This document shows positions 419 through 23,950 of a stretch of 23,950 bases of DNA, in pieces. The position numbers were made by a program, and so were the translations under genes. Under the pieces are notes generated by a model. It saw only the letters and a program-made list of their open reading frames with translations, did not search any database and was not told where the DNA came from. Within the stretch, counting starts at the first letter, position 1. Each line of letters starts with the position of its first letter. The DNA comes from a virus: IMG/VR virus record IMGVR_UViG_3300017917_001318, positions 1-23,950 of that record; one strand, written 5' to 3'.

Positions 419-441
419 TTTAACTTTAGTTTACATAAAGG

Positions 442-467
442 CCCGAGATTTATATCTCGGGTTTTTT
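442..467 (+). terminator. Rho-independent terminator
   Basis: A perfect 8-bp stem CCCGAGAT/ATCTCGGG (442-449 and 454-461) with a four-base loop TTAT is followed by six T at 462-467. This is a textbook intrinsic terminator. It closes the transcript of the small virion gene, and the next gene starts only 17 bases later. Confidence 0.92.
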
Positions 468-483
468 ATTGCTTAAATATAGT

Positions 484-927
484 ATGACTAATATTATTCG
501 TTGTTATACCCTTTTTAATATAACTAAAACAGGTATACGCCAGCGTGGTAAAATTCCAGATGATGTGCAGGTAGATAAATTTATAAAGCAAAGAAATAGT
601 CAAAATAATTTTGACACACTATTGCAAGTTATTAGTCTTAGGAGTCAGCCTGAAGTATTTAAGGATCCTATTTTTCGCAACATAGACCTTAAAGAATTAA
701 ATTTTGGGTTTATATATGAATCTACCAAAGAAATGTGTGATGTTTGGTATTTCGATTTTGAGGTGCATCATCCAAGCGTATTTAATGATGGGATAGATCA
801 GTTTGGTAATTTATACAAAGATTGTAATAACATACCTATGATGAAAGTGGAAAAAGAACATACCATGTTAAGTAACTTCTTGGATATCAGTCCTGAATTA
901 CAAAATATTTATTTTGAGTTTGTATGA
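484..927 (+). CDS. Conserved hypothetical protein of marine T4-like phages
   Basis: The product is 147 aa and starts MTNIIRCYTLFNITKTG. The open frame extends upstream to a TTG at 469, but that codon lies at the end of the terminator T-run, and the ATG at 484 gives the N-terminus I recall from cyanophage relatives. There is no Shine-Dalgarno sequence. A degenerate late box CTTAAATA ends at 479, four bases before the ATG, so the message may be leaderless. The protein is soluble, with an acidic, aromatic C-terminal half and no catalytic motif that I recognise. It overlaps the next gene by four bases (ATGA). Function unknown. Confidence 0.72.
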   Translation: MTNIIRCYTLFNITKTGIRQRGKIPDDVQVDKFIKQRNSQNNFDTLLQVISLRSQPEVFKDPIFRNIDLKELNFGFIYESTKEMCDVWYFDFEVHHPSVFNDGIDQFGNLYKDCNNIPMMKVEKEHTMLSNFLDISPELQNIYFEFV

Positions 928-1406: not shown

Positions 1407-1414
1407 GATAAATA
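1407..1414 (+). promoter_or_regulatory. T4-type late promoter box GATAAATA
   Basis: GATAAATA lies 23 bases before the ATG at 1438. It matches the T4 late promoter element TATAAATA except at the first base, and the same RATAAATA form recurs before other late genes here. It would start the 1438-3472 operon. Confidence 0.7.
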
Positions 1415-3477: not shown

Positions 3478-3485
3478 GATAAATA
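3478..3485 (+). promoter_or_regulatory. T4-type late promoter box GATAAATA
   Basis: GATAAATA lies 25 bases before the ATG at 3511, directly after the exonuclease stop. It would drive the fibre gene and the structural genes after it. Confidence 0.7.
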
Positions 3486-8109: not shown

Positions 8110-9159
8110 ATGGCATTATGTTCAACTGGATGTATGAGTATGGGGGGTAGTGATGCCCCTCGTAGTATTAATTGTGAACTAGGCGTACCAGGTAGTTCTA
8201 CTATATGTTTAAATAGTCCAACTGTACGAACTTTGGCTGGAGTTCCAGCTGGGGCAATTAGTTTATGTAACTTTTATGGTAAGGCAAATGCTCCTTACAG
8301 TGTTGAGTATTTGGTACTTGCAGGTGGCGGTAGCTCTAAATGCGCGGTAGGTACACCAAGTGGAACGCCCTCAATTAATGCTGGTTCAGGTGCCGGAGGA
8401 TTGGTAACCGGAAATTTTGGAGTTACATCAAATCAGGCTATTTGCATACAAGTGGGTGCAGGAGGAGGGAGCGGAACTAATGGGACTAATTCCTGTTTAG
8501 GGTGTTTTAAGACAACATGCGGAGGCGGTTCAGGTGGAGGTGGGGTTGGAACTCCAAGTGGTACAAGCTTACCTGCATGTTGTGGTGGTTCAGGTGGAGG
8601 TGCAGGATATGTCTTTGCGTTCGGGGCCATATATCAAGGTGCTTGTTCAATAAATAATGAAGGTAATTGTGGGGGCGGGTTTGGAAATCCAGGCGGGTAT
8701 GGAAGTTTAGCTGGAGGTGGAGGAGGTAGATCCACAGCTGGTGGATTTGCAGGAATTGGTGGTGGAGCTGGTGGACAAGGATGCTTTTATCCATTTAATC
8801 AAGTATTTTCATTAGGCCCACTTAGTGGAGGATGTTACTGGATTGCAGGCGGTGGAGGTGGAGGTGGCGGTGGTGCATATGGTGGTGGAGCTGGTGGTTT
8901 AGGTGGGGGCGGAAGCGGATCTTATTCTACATCAAGTGCTCAAGTTGGGCAGGCAGGTCAAGCAAACACAGGTGGTGGAGCTGGTGGAGGTACTGGGTGT
9001 GCCCCTGCGGCCGCAGGTGGAAGTGGGTCGGTATTTTTAAGATATCCGTCAAATATAATTGATGCACCTGCAACAACAGGAAGCCCATGTTATTGCTGTA
9101 CAGGTGGATACAAATATTATTGGTTTAGAGGATCAGGGTCAATTACTTTGTGTTGTTAA
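8110..9159 (+). CDS. Cysteine- and glycine-rich tail fibre adhesin, copy 1
   Basis: The product is 349 aa. Residues 1-58 are a docking module (MALCSTGCMSMGGSDAPRS to SLCNFYGK) of the RSINxELG...VRTLAGVxxGAISLxNFYGK type, common in marine phage fibres. The rest is a Gly-rich domain starting VEYLVLAGGGSS, with runs of up to nine Gly, as in gp38-like polyglycine adhesins that sit at fibre tips. About 22 cysteines are present, with CYCCTGG near the end and CC at the C-terminus. GGAG at 8097-8100 supports the start. A paralogue follows in tandem. The family-level role in host recognition is likely; the receptor is unknown. Confidence 0.85.
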   Translation: MALCSTGCMSMGGSDAPRSINCELGVPGSSTICLNSPTVRTLAGVPAGAISLCNFYGKANAPYSVEYLVLAGGGSSKCAVGTPSGTPSINAGSGAGGLVTGNFGVTSNQAICIQVGAGGGSGTNGTNSCLGCFKTTCGGGSGGGGVGTPSGTSLPACCGGSGGGAGYVFAFGAIYQGACSINNEGNCGGGFGNPGGYGSLAGGGGGRSTAGGFAGIGGGAGGQGCFYPFNQVFSLGPLSGGCYWIAGGGGGGGGGAYGGGAGGLGGGGSGSYSTSSAQVGQAGQANTGGGAGGGTGCAPAAAGGSGSVFLRYPSNIIDAPATTGSPCYCCTGGYKYYWFRGSGSITLCC

Positions 9160-9228
9160 ATATAACATGAAGTCTATGTTTTTGTTTTGAAGTTTTTGTA
9201 GTTTATAAAGGAATTAGTAAATGGCATT

Positions 9229-10254
9229 ATGTTCAACTGGTTGTATGAGTATGGGGGTAGTGATGCCCCTCGTAGCATCAATTGTGAACTCGGAGTACCA
9301 GGTAGTTCTACTATATGTTTAAATAGTCCTACTGTACGAACTTTGGCTGGAGTTCCAGCTGGGGCAATTAGTTTATGTAATTTTTATGGTAAATCTAACC
9401 AAATTCCTTTAAGTGCAGATATTTTGGTAGTTGCAGGTGGGGGTGGAAATTGGACTGGTGTGTCAGGAGGTTCTGGTGCAGGAGGTGTATTAATGTGTTG
9501 TTCAATCGGACCACCTACTATAACAAGATGCACGAGCTATTCCATTCAAGTTGGGGGTGGGGGTGGATGCAATTCTCGTGGTACAAGTTCTTGTTTTTTT
9601 AGTATTGTAACATGTGGAGGAGGAGGGGGAGGACACTACACACCAAATCCAGTGGCTCCCTTTGCGCAGGGCTGTTTATCTGGACAGGCAGGTGGATCAG
9701 GGGGTGGAAGTAATTATTCCCCTACATCGTTTGGTTGTGCTGTAAACAATTGTCTAGAAGGAAGAGAAGGTGCAGGATCAGGACCAGGCGGTGGTGGGAG
9801 TTATTGTGCAGGAGGAGGTGGAGGTAAATCAGCAGCAGGAGGCAACCCAGCAGGAGGTCAAGGATGTTTTTATCCTATCACTCAAGCAGTTAGTCATGGA
9901 GATTTGAGAAACGGATGTTATTGGGTAGGTGGCGGAGGTGGAGGCACGCAAGGAAGGACTAATCCTCCAGGTAGACCAAATGGTGGATTCGGTGGAGGGG
10001 GAGATTCGGGTTTTAATGTTGGTCCAAGTTATTGTGGAGGATGTCCAGGAATGACTAATACCGGTGGTGGTGCAGGGGGCGGAGGAGGAGGGTACACTGT
10101 ACCTTCAGGGGGAAGTGGTGTTGTGTTGATTAAGTATAATTCTGGATTACCTGATGCATGTACTACTGGCACACCTTGTTATTGTTGTACAGGGGGATTT
10201 AAGTATTATATATTTAAAGGTTCAGGCACAATAGCTTTTTGTTGTACAACTTAA
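9229..10254 (+). CDS. Cysteine- and glycine-rich tail fibre adhesin, copy 2 (frameshifted 5' end)
   Basis: This is a tandem paralogue of the preceding adhesin with the same docking module, Gly-rich core, GQGCFYP and GCYW motifs and CYCCTGG end, and about 25 cysteines if the ancestral start is restored. The natural start is the ATG at 9221, with AAGGA at 9208-9212, which begins MALCSTGCMSMG as in copy 1. However, a run of five G (9253-9257) replaces the six G of copy 1 (8142-8147), so that frame stops at 9320-9322 after 33 codons. The given coordinates use the ATG at 9229, which reads in frame as MFNWLYEYGGSDAP. Sequencing error, variation between phage genomes, or slippage on the G-run are all possible. 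Confidence 0.8.
   Translation: MFNWLYEYGGSDAPRSINCELGVPGSSTICLNSPTVRTLAGVPAGAISLCNFYGKSNQIPLSADILVVAGGGGNWTGVSGGSGAGGVLMCCSIGPPTITRCTSYSIQVGGGGGCNSRGTSSCFFSIVTCGGGGGGHYTPNPVAPFAQGCLSGQAGGSGGGSNYSPTSFGCAVNNCLEGREGAGSGPGGGGSYCAGGGGGKSAAGGNPAGGQGCFYPITQAVSHGDLRNGCYWVGGGGGGTQGRTNPPGRPNGGFGGGGDSGFNVGPSYCGGCPGMTNTGGGAGGGGGGYTVPSGGSGVVLIKYNSGLPDACTTGTPCYCCTGGFKYYIFKGSGTIAFCCTT
9253..9257 (+). other. Five-G tract that decides the frame of adhesin copy 2
   Basis: With six G the ATG at 9221 would read through the whole gene; with five it ends after 33 codons. A ribosome with Gly-tRNA on GGG at 9254-9256 could slip back one base to GGG at 9253-9255 and then read GGT AGT GAT, giving the same MGGSD sequence as copy 1. 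No classical tandem-slip heptamer is present. Confidence 0.85.
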
Positions 10255-12115: not shown

Positions 12116-13834
12116 TTAGGGCTCGGGAGGTAAAGGGTCAGGAGCTAATTGTAGTATTGAACTTAATGGTTGTGCTTCAGGAACAAATGTTTCTGTTTGT
12201 TGCATATAAATTGTAGTTGTATCATTTATGAACAATGATTTTCTTGACTGATCATCAATTGTGAATCCTGTTTCTGTTCTAACATTTTCGCTAATTCTTA
12301 CCCACATTACACCATCCCAGCGATATAATATTTGTGGTAGATAATCTGTTCTTAGGAAGTAATCACCAACTTGTGGACTTTGAGGGAAACTTATTCCAGC
12401 GCCAGTTGGTAATCCATTTGGTGGTGATGCTGTACCTGTGAGATATCCTGCAATATAACCAAACGATCTAGGGGTATATCTTGCAATAAATTGATATCTA
12501 GGATCACAGTCTGCTCTAAAATCCATTTGTGGAGTTATGGTATCGGTAAAGCCTGGCTGTGTTGGATCTTGATCAGCAGTAGCATAAGTGTTATCAGCAG
12601 TGCCATATGGTCCTGTAATTGCTCCTAATGATTGAACTGATAAAATTTTCTCGCCAGTAACTGGGCCAGATCCTGATCCCATTTTTTGTGCAGGAAGTTC
12701 AATGACTTCTAAGTTTGTTTGCACAAATTTATCAAGTTTTTGTGATAAATCCATATCAACAGTTAAGTCCCAAATACTTTGCATTGCTGCTTGAGGAACT
12801 TTAATACCAATACTTGGATTTTTATATTTTGGATTACGCATTGATACGACAACTCCACTCACAGTTGTACCTGGAGCTCCTGCCGAACTAACGATTACAT
12901 TAATTGGTGGTGCAGGTTGACCATCTTTATCAGAAAACACACCATCTGATTCATAAACACCATAAGTTGGAACAACATATAATTTACTATTATCATAACC
13001 AGCTTTTGGAACTATTCTTCTCGCCTCGTCTAAATTAGCATTATTAATACTAATATTTTGATTGTATCTGCCTAGTATATCTCTTAGGTTTTGATTCGTA
13101 TCTAACTCCCAATATGTTGGATTTGGTGGATTGATTCCAATTGGAACTTCTGCTATTGAAATATAATTTTTGTCACCGTACGTTATTACATATCCAGCTG
13201 GGTATGTTCTTGTGTTATCATATAATCCCAAATAATTATCTTGGTTTATTGGTTCGCTTAATATTTGACTGAATTCTTCACTGTCAACTAATGGTTCACA
13301 TTTTATACGCCATAAGTGTGGAAACCAAGTTTGACTAAAACCTTCACTTGCATAATTAGCATCAGTGATTTGCATGAACCTTTTTAACGCAACTGGAATA
13401 GTTTCTTTTAAAGGATTGTAGTCTAACAAGTGCGGCAATTCAATTACATCGCCTACCATTAATTTACGGCCTACAATATCAATCATATCATTGTAATGCA
13501 CTGTAATGAAGATAATGTCATTGTTTAAAAATAACCCGAACTGACTTAAATCAAAATCTAAATTTTGGACTTGATAATGCCCACGCAGTCTGTAAATACT
13601 AGTGTCATATGTCCGATCTCTATTTTCAAGAAACATCAAATCCTGTATATTAGTTGGACTTAATGTTTCATATTCAGGTTGCGTATAATCAACACTTGGT
13701 CCTTGATTTGTCGGTCCCAAATATTTATGTATATATAAATCCGTCCCGCCCACAGTAAGTTGTTCAGAAATGGTTCTGTCAAAAAATCGATAGTCGTTTT
13801 GTTTATTAGGTCTGTATAGGGATAATTTTGGCAT
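12116..13834 (-). CDS. 14: Neck protein, gp14-like, enlarged
   Basis: The product is 572 aa. The start at 13834 (MPKLSLYRPNKQNDYRFFD) is chosen over the longer frame to 14032 because the extra N-terminal part overlaps the divergent gene and its promoter. Residues 60-195 contain VGDVIELPHL and ITDANYASEGFSQTW, which I align by eye with the VEPREGDLIYFP and ITWVEPYN region of T4 gp14, a neck protein (256 aa) that with gp13 seals the filled head for tail joining. Residues 203-245 look like a chitin-binding-type (CBM5/12) module, and residues 490-515 (GDYFLRTD to WVRI) match a module of the sheath protein. gp15 follows, as in T4. The N-terminal homology is moderate and the insertions are inferred. 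Confidence 0.62.
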   Translation of the reverse strand: MPKLSLYRPNKQNDYRFFDRTISEQLTVGGTDLYIHKYLGPTNQGPSVDYTQPEYETLSPTNIQDLMFLENRDRTYDTSIYRLRGHYQVQNLDFDLSQFGLFLNNDIIFITVHYNDMIDIVGRKLMVGDVIELPHLLDYNPLKETIPVALKRFMQITDANYASEGFSQTWFPHLWRIKCEPLVDSEEFSQILSEPINQDNYLGLYDNTRTYPAGYVITYGDKNYISIAEVPIGINPPNPTYWELDTNQNLRDILGRYNQNISINNANLDEARRIVPKAGYDNSKLYVVPTYGVYESDGVFSDKDGQPAPPINVIVSSAGAPGTTVSGVVVSMRNPKYKNPSIGIKVPQAAMQSIWDLTVDMDLSQKLDKFVQTNLEVIELPAQKMGSGSGPVTGEKILSVQSLGAITGPYGTADNTYATADQDPTQPGFTDTITPQMDFRADCDPRYQFIARYTPRSFGYIAGYLTGTASPPNGLPTGAGISFPQSPQVGDYFLRTDYLPQILYRWDGVMWVRISENVRTETGFTIDDQSRKSLFINDTTTIYMQQTETFVPEAQPLSSILQLAPDPLPPEP

Positions 13835-13838
13835 ATAG

Positions 13839-13846
13839 TATTTATC
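13839..13846 (-). promoter_or_regulatory. Late promoter box GATAAATA four bases before the gp14 start
   Basis: On the minus strand the order is GATAAATA, CTAT, ATG, with no Shine-Dalgarno between box and start. With T4 late-promoter geometry, transcription would begin at or within one base of the start codon. The 12 bases GATAAATACTAT are identical to those upstream of gp13 (15721-15732). Confidence 0.65.
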
Positions 13847-13854
13847 GGGCAAGG

Positions 13855-13883
13855 TTGACAATAAATATGAGGTCGTGTATAAT
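13855..13883 (+). promoter_or_regulatory. Perfect consensus sigma70 promoter (early type)
   Basis: TTGACA (13855-13860), a 17-base spacer, and TATAAT (13878-13883) match the bacterial sigma70 consensus at all twelve positions with ideal spacing. Such promoters drive T4-type early genes through host RNA polymerase. A late box AATAAATA at 13860-13867 lies inside the spacer, so the site may serve both early and late transcription. The start point would be near 13890, about 20 bases before the ATG at 13911. Confidence 0.88.
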
Positions 13884-15720: not shown

Positions 15721-15728
15721 GATAAATA
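15721..15728 (+). promoter_or_regulatory. T4-type late promoter box GATAAATA for gp13
   Basis: GATAAATA ends 18 bases before the gp13 ATG, with AAAGG at 15734-15738 between them. It shares 12 bases (GATAAATACTAT) with the gp14 box, but there the ATG follows directly. Confidence 0.72.
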
Positions 15729-16589: not shown

Positions 16590-17222
16590 ATGATTATTGG
16601 TGTGACTGGTTTGATAGGGTCAGGCAAAGATACTGTAGCAGATTATTTGTGTACGTTTTATGGATTCAGACGCTTAAGTTTTGCTGCTAGTTTAAAAGAT
16701 GCATTATCAGCAATCTTTGGTTGGGATCGTGAACTATTAGAAGGATCAACAAAATCAAGTCGTGAATGGCGTGAACAAGTTGATGAATGGTGGGCAAAAC
16801 GATTAAATATCCCACATCTTACCCCACGTTGGACTATGCAAATTTGGGGGACAGAAGTTGCTAGAGAAAGTTTTCATAATGATATTTGGGTAGCCAGTGT
16901 TGAAAATAAACTGAGAACAACCAAAGATGATATAGTAATTACTGATTGTAGATTTAGTAATGAGGTAAATGCAATTAAAAATGCAGGTGGTATAGCTATT
17001 AGAATTGAACGTGGTGATAAACCTGATTGGTATGAATATGCGGAACAATTTAATAGAGGACCTAGTGCAATAGGTTGGGCACTTAGTAAGTCTGAACTAA
17101 TTAATCGCAACATTCATGCAAGTGAATATAGTAGCGTTGGTTTAAATTATGATGCTATTATAGATAATAATGGAACAATAGACCAACTTCACACTAATAT
17201 TAAATCAATACTCAATTTGTAA
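16590..17222 (+). CDS. 1: Deoxynucleoside monophosphate kinase (T4 gp1-like)
   Basis: The product is 210 aa. It has a P-loop at residues 7-15 (GLIGSGKDT), then LSFAASLKDALSAIFGW, PRWTMQIWGTEVAR, and DDIVITDCRFSNEVNAIKNA, the pattern of T4-type dNMP kinases. The enzyme phosphorylates dNMPs with ATP to feed phage DNA synthesis in the cytoplasm. T4 gp1 is 241 aa. Its ribosome site sits in a hairpin loop. The 3' end overlaps the convergent HNH gene by 18 bases. A nucleotide-metabolism gene between neck and sheath genes is out of place relative to T4 and, with MazG and NUDIX, makes three nucleotide enzymes scattered among late genes. Confidence 0.88.
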   Translation: MIIGVTGLIGSGKDTVADYLCTFYGFRRLSFAASLKDALSAIFGWDRELLEGSTKSSREWREQVDEWWAKRLNIPHLTPRWTMQIWGTEVARESFHNDIWVASVENKLRTTKDDIVITDCRFSNEVNAIKNAGGIAIRIERGDKPDWYEYAEQFNRGPSAIGWALSKSELINRNIHASEYSSVGLNYDAIIDNNGTIDQLHTNIKSILNL

Positions 17223-17552
17223 GTCTCCACGCTTCCAGTTGACATTTTTTCTTTTTATTACTTCAACACAATTTAGACATACTGTTCTTAGGTTATTTAA
17301 TTGCACATTTATTAAATTACCATCAATGTGAAACACTGTTAATTGTGTTGGATAAATTGATTTAAAGCCGCATAAATCACAGGTTGGTTTCTTTTTATAC
17401 CCAGACTTTTCCCAATTGGAAACTCTGGGTTTTAATTTTTCTTTTTTCCTGCCACAAACATCACATAAACTACGGTAATAGATTTTACCTTTACGCCAAT
17501 AATTTATAGCACAAACATTGGCATTGCATTGTTTACATAAAGGCCTTTGCAT
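17205..17552 (-). CDS. Free-standing HNH endonuclease with zinc-ribbon motifs
   Basis: The product is 115 aa with four Cys-x2-Cys pairs (C6/C9, C30/C33, C58/C61, C92/C95) and the HNH core FHIDGNLINVQLNNLRTVC (H75, D77, N79, N86/N87). It is related to small phage HNH homing enzymes that cut near their own insertion site and spread by repair. It is on the opposite strand to its neighbours, overlaps the dNMP kinase end by 18 bases and sits before gp18, as expected of a mobile intergenic gene. No Shine-Dalgarno is present; AATAAATA lies exactly four bases before the ATG. Confidence 0.83.
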   Translation of the reverse strand: MQRPLCKQCNANVCAINYWRKGKIYYRSLCDVCGRKKEKLKPRVSNWEKSGYKKKPTCDLCGFKSIYPTQLTVFHIDGNLINVQLNNLRTVCLNCVEVIKRKNVNWKRGDLQIEY

Positions 17553-17556
17553 ATTT

Positions 17557-17564
17557 TATTTATT
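17557..17564 (-). promoter_or_regulatory. Late promoter box AATAAATA four bases before the HNH start
   Basis: On the minus strand the order is AATAAATA, AAAT, ATG. Spacing and lack of a ribosome site are the same as at gp14 and at the last gene of the window. Confidence 0.55.
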
Positions 17565-17565
17565 A

Positions 17566-17577
17566 ACCTTTAAAGGT
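17566..17577. repeat. 12-bp palindrome in the HNH-gp18 divergent spacer
   Basis: ACCTTTAAAGGT is its own reverse complement and lies between the divergent HNH and gp18 promoters, with GGTATACC (17581-17588) close by. It may be a protein-binding site or a mark of HNH insertion; no function can be read. Confidence 0.4.
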
Positions 17578-17606: not shown

Positions 17607-17614
17607 AATAAATA
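17607..17614 (+). promoter_or_regulatory. T4-type late promoter box AATAAATA for gp18
   Basis: AATAAATA lies 53 bases before the sheath ATG, with a clear ribosome site AAGGA at 17656-17660. It divides the spacer with the divergent HNH gene. Confidence 0.7.
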
Positions 17615-21279: not shown

Positions 21280-21287
21280 AATAAATA
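21280..21287 (+). promoter_or_regulatory. T4-type late promoter box AATAAATA for gp19
   Basis: AATAAATA lies 22 bases before the tube ATG, with AGGAG at 21295-21299. Together with the hairpin just upstream it makes gp19 a separate, probably strongly expressed, unit. Confidence 0.72.
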
Positions 21288-23422: not shown

Positions 23423-23860
23423 ATGGCTAATTACGCACAAGGTTTTTATGATATAAAAAATACAGAAAAGTATGTAGGAAATCATAAACCTAAATATCGT
23501 TCGGGTTGGGAACTCACGTTTATGATGTTTTGTGATAATAACAAAAACATTTTACATTGGGCCAGCGAAGCAATAAAAATTCCATACCGTCATCCAATAA
23601 CTGGAAAACAAACAATTTATGTACCAGATTTTTTTGTAGTTTATGAGAATAAACGCAAACAAAAGGTAGCTGAGATTGTAGAAATAAAACCTAAAAAACA
23701 AAGCTTGATAGAAAGTAGAACAGCCAGTGCTAGGGACAAACTAGCAGTTGTTATCAATCATGCTAAGTGGGCAGCAGCTAATGCGTATTGTAAAAGACAT
23801 GGTTATACTTTTAGAGTCGTAACTGAAACTGATTTGTTTTATAACGGTCGTAAACCCTAA
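23423..23860 (+). CDS. 4: Head completion protein, gp4-like, with nuclease-type fold
   Basis: The product is 145 aa (T4 gp4 is about 150). PKYRSGWELTFMMFCDNNKN, LHWASEAIKIPYRHP, YVPDFFVVY, and EIVEIKPKKQ align with T4 gp4 (TYRSNWEKFFFEWL, WGSETAVIPY, YFMDIWM, FFIEIKPKKE). The arrangement E30, D69, E87-x-K89 matches a PD-(D/E)XK nuclease site, so the protein may trim or cut DNA when the filled head is completed. It begins one base after the previous stop. Confidence 0.9.
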   Translation: MANYAQGFYDIKNTEKYVGNHKPKYRSGWELTFMMFCDNNKNILHWASEAIKIPYRHPITGKQTIYVPDFFVVYENKRKQKVAEIVEIKPKKQSLIESRTASARDKLAVVINHAKWAAANAYCKRHGYTFRVVTETDLFYNGRKP

Positions 23861-23867
23861 ATAAATA
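23860..23867 (+). promoter_or_regulatory. Late promoter box AATAAATA four bases before the next start
   Basis: The box begins on the last base of the gp4 stop codon. The order is AATAAATA, AAAC, ATG, with no Shine-Dalgarno, the same geometry as at gp14 and the HNH gene. Confidence 0.6.
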
Positions 23868-23871
23868 AAAC

Positions 23872-23949
23872 ATGACAAAAAAATTAGAAGAATTATTTGA
23901 ACTAGCAAGTTCAGACGATAATGACCTTGTAACTCCACTTCCTGAAGTA
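23872..23949 (+). CDS. Partial gene, possibly small terminase gp16
   Basis: Only the first 26 codons are in the window (MTKKLEELFELASSDDNDLV, then TPLPEV), and the frame is open at the end. The acidic, helical start with KLEELFEL resembles what I remember of the N-termini of small terminase (gp16) proteins in T4-like marine phages, and the gene follows a head completion gene. With so little sequence this is a guess. The last base of the window (23950) begins codon 27. Confidence 0.4.
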   Translation, partial: MTKKLEELFELASSDDNDLVTPLPEV

Positions 23950-23950
23950 A

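Follow-up and report, generated by a model that had tools for sequence, protein, structure and literature searches.

The DNA analyzed here, a 23,950-base IMG/VR virus record (hereafter the window), raises the question of whether a late promoter of the T4 type, when placed a few bases before a start codon, can give rise to a messenger that begins at that very codon. The earlier note had recognized three genes in which RATAAATA is followed by four bases and ATG, together with a fourth having a degenerate box at the same spacing, and had read them as a distinct leaderless class of late transcripts. All three exact sites lie where it had placed them (GATAAATACTATATG at 13832-13846 and AATAAATAAAATATG at 17550-17564, both on the minus strand, and AATAAATAAAACATG at 23860-23874 on the plus strand), against 0.14 expected from 100 dinucleotide shuffles, none of which reached three; the degenerate site, CTTAAATA-TAGT-ATG, is likewise present at 472-486. 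The unusual feature of the window's boxes is their position and not their number. ATAAATA occurs 15 times versus 14.2 expected, a point in favor of mere chance in an A+T-rich genome, and the consensus of T4 itself, TATAAATA, was not found in the window (0 versus 4.5 expected).

The gene behind the first site, located at 12116..13834 on the minus strand and predicted to be leaderless, encodes a virion structural protein (phrog_11591, E 3.9e-80), and its late box GATAAATA (13839..13846, minus) ends four bases before the ATG at 13832-13834. It had been called gp14, a label that PHROGs, which gives only "virion structural protein," did not confirm. The protein is related to structural proteins of the jumbo phages PA5oct, Atu_ph07, and CBB, with 38-43% identity over one-third to two-thirds of its length. 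The IMG/VR relatives align from residue 1, and the PA5oct homolog does so as well and begins at an ATG behind AGGAG, which supports the ATG at 13834 as the true start. The second predicted leaderless gene (17205..17552, minus) encodes an HNH endonuclease-like protein (phrog_10822, E 2.1e-5) and carries the box AATAAATA at 17557..17564 (minus), four bases before the ATG at 17550-17552. The third, which is cut by the window end (23872..23950, plus) and whose product might, as a guess, be a small terminase, has AATAAATA at 23860..23867 (plus), four bases before the ATG at 23872-23874, the first A of the box being also part of the upstream gene's stop codon. The fourth predicted leaderless gene (484..927, plus), encoding 147 aa without a PHROGs match, follows the degenerate box CTTAAATA (472..479, plus) at the same distance of four bases.

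The box-to-ATG distance, hereafter d, was surveyed in 160 related IMG/VR loci, consisting of 80 with the 13834 gene and 80 with the tail tube gene, in each case the best 80 of a longer list, and including a few that share a contig. Together with the window, these loci gave 1,865 ORFs, which were defined by the longest-ORF rule with in-frame ATGs within the first 40 codons and dereplicated by flanking sequence. The distance from RATAAATA was clearly bimodal in this set, with 34 genes at d=4, 51 at d=5, and 191 at d=17-25, while only 2 in all fell at d=0-3 and 10 at d=6-16. Three permutations of the box that do not overlap the real one yielded 1, 0, and 0 genes at d=4-5; ATAAATAR and RTAAATAA, two permutations with a one-base overlap with the real box, gave 11 and 8 genes at this distance and were excluded from the controls. 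When any first base was allowed, 46 genes at d=4 and 68 at d=5 were obtained, making 114 distinct genes. They fall into 16 protein families, two of which account for 62 of the genes and eight of which have one member each; at least one of these single-gene families, that in locus L071, probably reflects a wrong start, as its window homolog 6554 starts further in by eye. G is the commonest first base of the late box in this clade, NNTAAATA is also used, and the T4 consensus TATAAATA appears in the relatives 9 times at d=4 and 12 times at d=5. The codon at this spacing was nearly always ATG: the in-frame codons at d=4-5 of NATAAATA were ATG in 114 cases, GTG in 0, TTG in 1, ATT in 0, ATA in 4, and ACG in 1, and GTG starts were seen in 2 of the 205 short-spaced family members.

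The earlier note had proposed testing related genomes for short spacing beyond what shuffled sequences give, and such an excess was found. In eight related records, two of them covered in part, ATAAATA stood at d=4-5 before 45 of 1,642 candidate ATGs, while the shuffles averaged 2.2 and never exceeded 6; in phage HTVC008M it did so before 8 of 331, with a shuffle mean of 0.6 and a maximum of 3 (30 shuffles per set). Its argument against chance is thus upheld, and so is the conservation of a short spacing, but the fixed value of four is not: both 4 and 5 are used in the relatives and the spacing is looser still in the HTVC008M lineage, which rules out an exact spacing of four as the hallmark of the class.

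The spacing was also conserved gene by gene. Orthologs were counted as distinct upstream sequences and scored for the distance from TAAATA to ATG; those with no ATG inside 12 codons of the aligned start, and those less than 70 bases from a contig end, were left out. In a separate display of the upstream regions, three rows of the HNH gene and two of the 484 gene showed no ATG close by. TAAATA stood 4-6 bases from the start ATG of the 13834 gene in 47 of 53 orthologs, of the HNH gene in 59 of 62, of the 23872 gene in 10 of 11, and of the 484 gene, whose degenerate box in the window is accordingly backed by its ATG-starting relatives, in 13 of 13; in G003, a further 484 ortholog, a late box precedes a GTG. 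The short spacing is accordingly a property of the gene, and it persists, as judged by eye, where the DNA upstream has largely diverged. The shuffles, the permuted boxes, and this gene-by-gene conservation together make chance a negligible explanation. A few 13834 orthologs were seen by eye to have the box further upstream and to carry AAGGAG or AGGAG, while in one of the orthologs, L047, the box stands 20 bases upstream with no evident Shine-Dalgarno sequence. Four orthologs with a distant box (L027, L029, L030, and L043) have an apparent ATT start behind AAGGAG or AGGAG, again as judged by eye.

The genes with a distant box, by contrast, keep it distant. In the window, all on the plus strand, GATAAATA lies at 1407..1414, 23 bases before ATG 1438, at 3478..3485, 25 bases before ATG 3511, where no four-base Shine-Dalgarno match is present, and at 15721..15728, 18 bases before the adaptor gene ATG 15747, with AGGT; AATAAATA lies at 17607..17614, 53 bases before the tail sheath ATG 17668, with AAGGA, and at 21280..21287, 22 bases before the tail tube ATG 21310, with AGGAG. 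For the tail sheath gene the box was found at 17-70 bases in 52 of 52 distinct orthologs and at 4-6 in none of them, and for the tail tube gene at 17-70 in 77 of 81 and at 4-6 in 0 of 81, every one of these 52 and 77 having a Shine-Dalgarno match of at least four bases. The adaptor gene had the box at 17-70 in 43 of 45 distinct orthologs, 25 of the 43 with a Shine-Dalgarno match.

As for the ribosome sites, the earlier note had described the short-spaced genes as lacking a Shine-Dalgarno sequence and the longer-spaced late genes as mostly having one. A four-base match was detected in 17 of the 114 genes at d=4-5, which is at the random rate of 14%; however, since the box fills the usual site, this absence is in part forced by the position of the box and is weak evidence when taken alone. 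At d=17-30, 175 of 243 genes had a match and 68 had no four-base match, so that the second description holds for the majority but not for every gene: gene 1438 has none in the window or in 16 of 16 distinct orthologs. Within the 16 families, a match was found in 23 of 205 short-spaced members versus 102 of 206 others. The 11 matches among the distinct HNH orthologs probably stem from a palindrome upstream of the box. A-rich sequence before an AUG can aid initiation, and TAAATA near the ATG might then be an A/U-rich ribosome-binding element in longer transcripts from other promoters. We regard this as very unlikely, because the same box is found 17-70 bases upstream of the sheath and tube genes, from where it would be unable to act at the AUG, and because the sharp spacing of 4-5 and the base preceding the ATG, described below, fit transcription initiation better.

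The position of the transcription start was approached from the geometry of the T4 late promoter, in which, as the earlier note had stated, the box is published at -13 to -6 (PMC1524935; PMC2988020). On this basis +1 falls on the A of the ATG when d=5, and at d=4 the start would have to lie one base nearer to the box; if +1 lay rigidly six bases after the box, the genes at d=4 would lose the A, which would count against the leaderless reading. Of 105 short-spaced genes, 96 have a pyrimidine immediately before the ATG (37 of 42 at d=4 and 59 of 63 at d=5); in the Shine-Dalgarno class this holds for 81 of 160, and among 1,058 ATG genes for 60%. The family mean was 0.92 over 16 families, with lower values in the HNH (48 of 64) and 484 (10 of 14) families. 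A pyrimidine at -1 is the usual preference at bacterial start sites, and the pattern is as would be expected if the A of the AUG is +1. Some transcripts may nevertheless have a leader of one to three bases, because the spacing varies (4 and 5 in the window's clade; 5, 6, and 8 in the HTVC008M lineage). That most of them start one to three bases before the AUG and so bear a very short leader, a reading which falls within the range of our preferred one, appears rather improbable though well worth keeping in mind, given that the pyrimidine-A signature stands at the ATG for d=4 and d=5 alike. The predicted folding of the first 45 bases was also weaker in the short-spaced genes, with a mean energy of -2.23 kcal/mol (G+C 0.34) versus -3.41 kcal/mol (G+C 0.37) for the Shine-Dalgarno class and -3.65 kcal/mol (G+C 0.35) for all ATG genes.

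The surroundings of gene 484 bear on whether such genes are served by transcripts from upstream. An intrinsic terminator of the upstream gene is predicted at 437..466 (plus), with a 13-pair stem followed by a T run (462-467) and a folding energy of -17.7 kcal/mol for 436-470 (z -6.1), and four bases separate the end of its T run from the late box. The hairpin and T run were visible by eye in 15 of 16 rows, the window included, the 16th being cut by a contig end. Transcription from upstream should thus mostly end ahead of gene 484, although readthrough of the terminator is possible, and this arrangement likewise speaks against a ribosome-binding element acting in a longer transcript. Reinitiation or readthrough from an upstream gene could in principle supply the ribosomes, the box being then merely an internal promoter, and for the 23872 gene reinitiation on a longer transcript is possible because the upstream stop lies 11 bases before it; as a general account, however, this is scarcely credible, since the upstream neighbors of the 13834 and HNH genes run in the opposite direction and gene 484 follows the terminator.

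A promoter of the late type would be expected to be read by a late sigma factor, and a predicted gp55-family late sigma was found in G001 (8.6e-75), HTVC008M, PA5oct, and T4. G001 was the only match among the eight related IMG/VR records, the other seven (43-144 kb) being possibly fragments. No -35 element was seen by eye in the 60 bases upstream of the 13834 orthologs, where a divergent promoter overlaps, and no hexamer near -35 was among the start-proximal hexamers listed. From the sequence data we propose that a gp55-type late RNA polymerase would recognize every late gene by one and the same box, NATAAATA/NNTAAATA. Where this box stands at d=4-5, transcription would begin at the A of the AUG, and the ribosome would have to bind the 5'-terminal AUG directly; where the box lies at least 17 bases upstream, the transcript would have a leader, usually with a Shine-Dalgarno sequence, and the box-to-ATG distance would thereby encode the mode of translation. 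The shuffles, the pyrimidine at -1, the weaker predicted 5' structure, and the 484 terminator support the distinct leaderless late class that the earlier note had suspected, and we consider it highly probable that these genes are expressed as leaderless late mRNAs from a gp55-type promoter, with the 5' end at the A of the AUG or within three bases of it. It is still speculative that this split keeps low-copy products low while providing the sheath and tube proteins with strong ribosome sites. A broader scheme, in which one late promoter type serves two translational classes set only by the box-AUG distance (a Shine-Dalgarno leader for sheath and tube, no leader for low-copy and packaging proteins) and in which the phage could tune the classes apart late in infection via initiation factors or ribosomes, compare phiYS40 below, is put forward tentatively, as an idea that may well prove wrong.

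The short-spaced class was then placed among other phages. HTVC008M represents a second lineage in which short spacing recurs: its genes at d=5 include those for the tape measure, the baseplate, and a DNA end protector, one of the eight has a Shine-Dalgarno match, and the seven that fall within the annotated stretch all begin at the annotated CDS start. Its spacing is looser, however, as 45 IMG/VR loci of this lineage with the baseplate wedge gene (L336-L380) showed mostly 5 (13) and 6 (15), and 35 loci of a sister group mostly 5 (11) and 8 (11). T4 had ATAAATA at d=4-5 in 0 of 462 candidate ATGs, and in the gene-based count 0 genes at d=4-5 versus 24 at d=17-30, of which 21 have a Shine-Dalgarno match. 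S-PM2 and Syn9 gave 0 of 749 at d=4-5, with neither NATAAATA nor NNTAAATA at that distance, and the sampled parts of Atu_ph07 and CBB gave 0 of 933; no gene had NATAAATA or NNTAAATA at d=4-5 in about 198 of the 378 kb of CBB, and in 198 of the 490 kb of Atu_ph07 there were 0 with NATAAATA and one with NNTAAATA. PA5oct, with 2 of 651, showed no excess over shuffles (mean 1.7). These counts for T4, S-PM2, Syn9, CBB, Atu_ph07, and PA5oct rule out a general feature of T4-like phages, and the range of the class seems, so far as sampled, to be the window's clade and the HTVC008M lineage. Gene-based histograms were chosen over raw pattern counts where the reversed control was equally high, since raw counts against that control were uninformative for SCTP-2 (14 vs 16), Atu_ph07 (6 vs 6), and CBB (2 vs 4). 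SCTP-2, Vibrio phage 2.275.O, phiM12, Aeh1, and Phosso were covered by the pattern scan only, with 0 vs 0 for phiM12, 1 vs 4 for Aeh1, and 4 vs 2 for Phosso.

The proposed class resembles T4 in having a TATAAATA-like box ahead of late genes and in the family of its late sigma, but differs in that T4 has no genes at d=4-5 and that this clade has a G-first box and NNTAAATA. HTVC008M is alike in its 8 genes at d=5, of which 1 has a Shine-Dalgarno match, and differs in belonging to the Kyanoviridae lineage, in having mostly a G after the box, and in having relatives that drift to d=6 and 8. The closest parallel outside this group is phiYS40, a Thermus phage most of whose middle and late mRNAs are said in a review to lack a leader, with a shift of IF2/IF3 during infection (PMC3594737). 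It is likewise a large phage with leaderless middle and late transcripts, yet there most of these mRNAs are leaderless while a defined subset is predicted here. Of the 14 start-proximal hexamers listed for phiYS40, TTGACA at 29 and TAAAAT at 6 look like the two parts of a -35/-10 promoter, and the list does not include TAAATA at 4-5; this clade and HTVC008M, conversely, have TAAATA at 4-5 and no TTGACA among the 14 hexamers listed per set. The phiYS40 record gave no gp55-family match (its control genomes gave none, and the same families matched in T4). Because of the -35/-10-like motifs and the missing gp55 match, phiYS40 would not use the same promoter system, although it may work alike at the ribosome.

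A bimodal leader length with a gap has also been described in Lactococcus cremoris, in which none of 4-14 nt was identified and the second mode is at about 40 nt (PMC10986495); that case concerns host genes and host promoters, and its gap and second-mode numbers are unlike those found here. A paper on AR9 mentions incidentally that transcripts of phages often lack a leader (PMC5312081), and the words "leader" and "Shine-Dalgarno" are absent from the accessible text of the review on T4 late transcription (PMC2988020). Leaderless phage mRNAs and T4-type late promoters are thus each already known separately, and a literature search covering few subscription journals returned, among the matches listed, no work joining the two. 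If the preferred reading of leaderless late mRNAs is true, the DNA of a large group of uncultured phages would reveal the mode of translation, gene starts could be called better in uncultured T4-related phages, and initiation at a 5'-terminal AUG during infection would become testable in an isolate such as HTVC008M.

Several further features of the loci were recorded. A perfect 12-bp palindrome, ACCTTTAAAGGT, stands just upstream of the HNH late box at 17566..17577 (1 found vs 0.00 expected), and the palindrome ACCTTYRAAGGT was seen by eye upstream of this box in most of the orthologs shown. Of the 40 palindrome sites in the loci, 38 adjoin a TAAATA-ATG pair, whereas four control palindromes gave 0 each; the center of the palindrome was CG in 26 of the sites, TA in 8, CA in 4, and TG in 2. 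The element at 17566-17577 may be an operator or the target of the HNH protein itself. Near the ATG, the box permutation RAATATAA, with 0 genes at d=4-5, occurred at d=1 in 14 genes of the 160 loci and window, and AATATA at d=2 in 6 HTVC008M genes, perhaps as part of an extended ribosome site. Facing gene 13911, and divergent from the 13834 gene, is a consensus sigma-70 promoter with TTGACA (13855-13860), a spacer of 17, and TATAAT (13878-13883); the copy of AATAAATA at 13860-13867 on the plus strand was rejected as a late box, as it lies almost wholly in the spacer of this promoter.

Elsewhere in the window, the stretch 2462-2782 contains a putative A-type iron-sulfur carrier-like gene, which is closest to Burkholderiaceae and gammaproteobacteria at about 60% identity (genome scan, best 80 of 143). 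A beta- or gammaproteobacterial host was not adopted on this ground, because an identity of about 60% is too weak to use. At 8110-10254, two adjacent glycine-rich proteins were seen by eye to share an N-terminal segment and are apparently a tandem duplication; an early run of G is, also by eye, shorter by one in the second copy, which is there read in another frame than the first.
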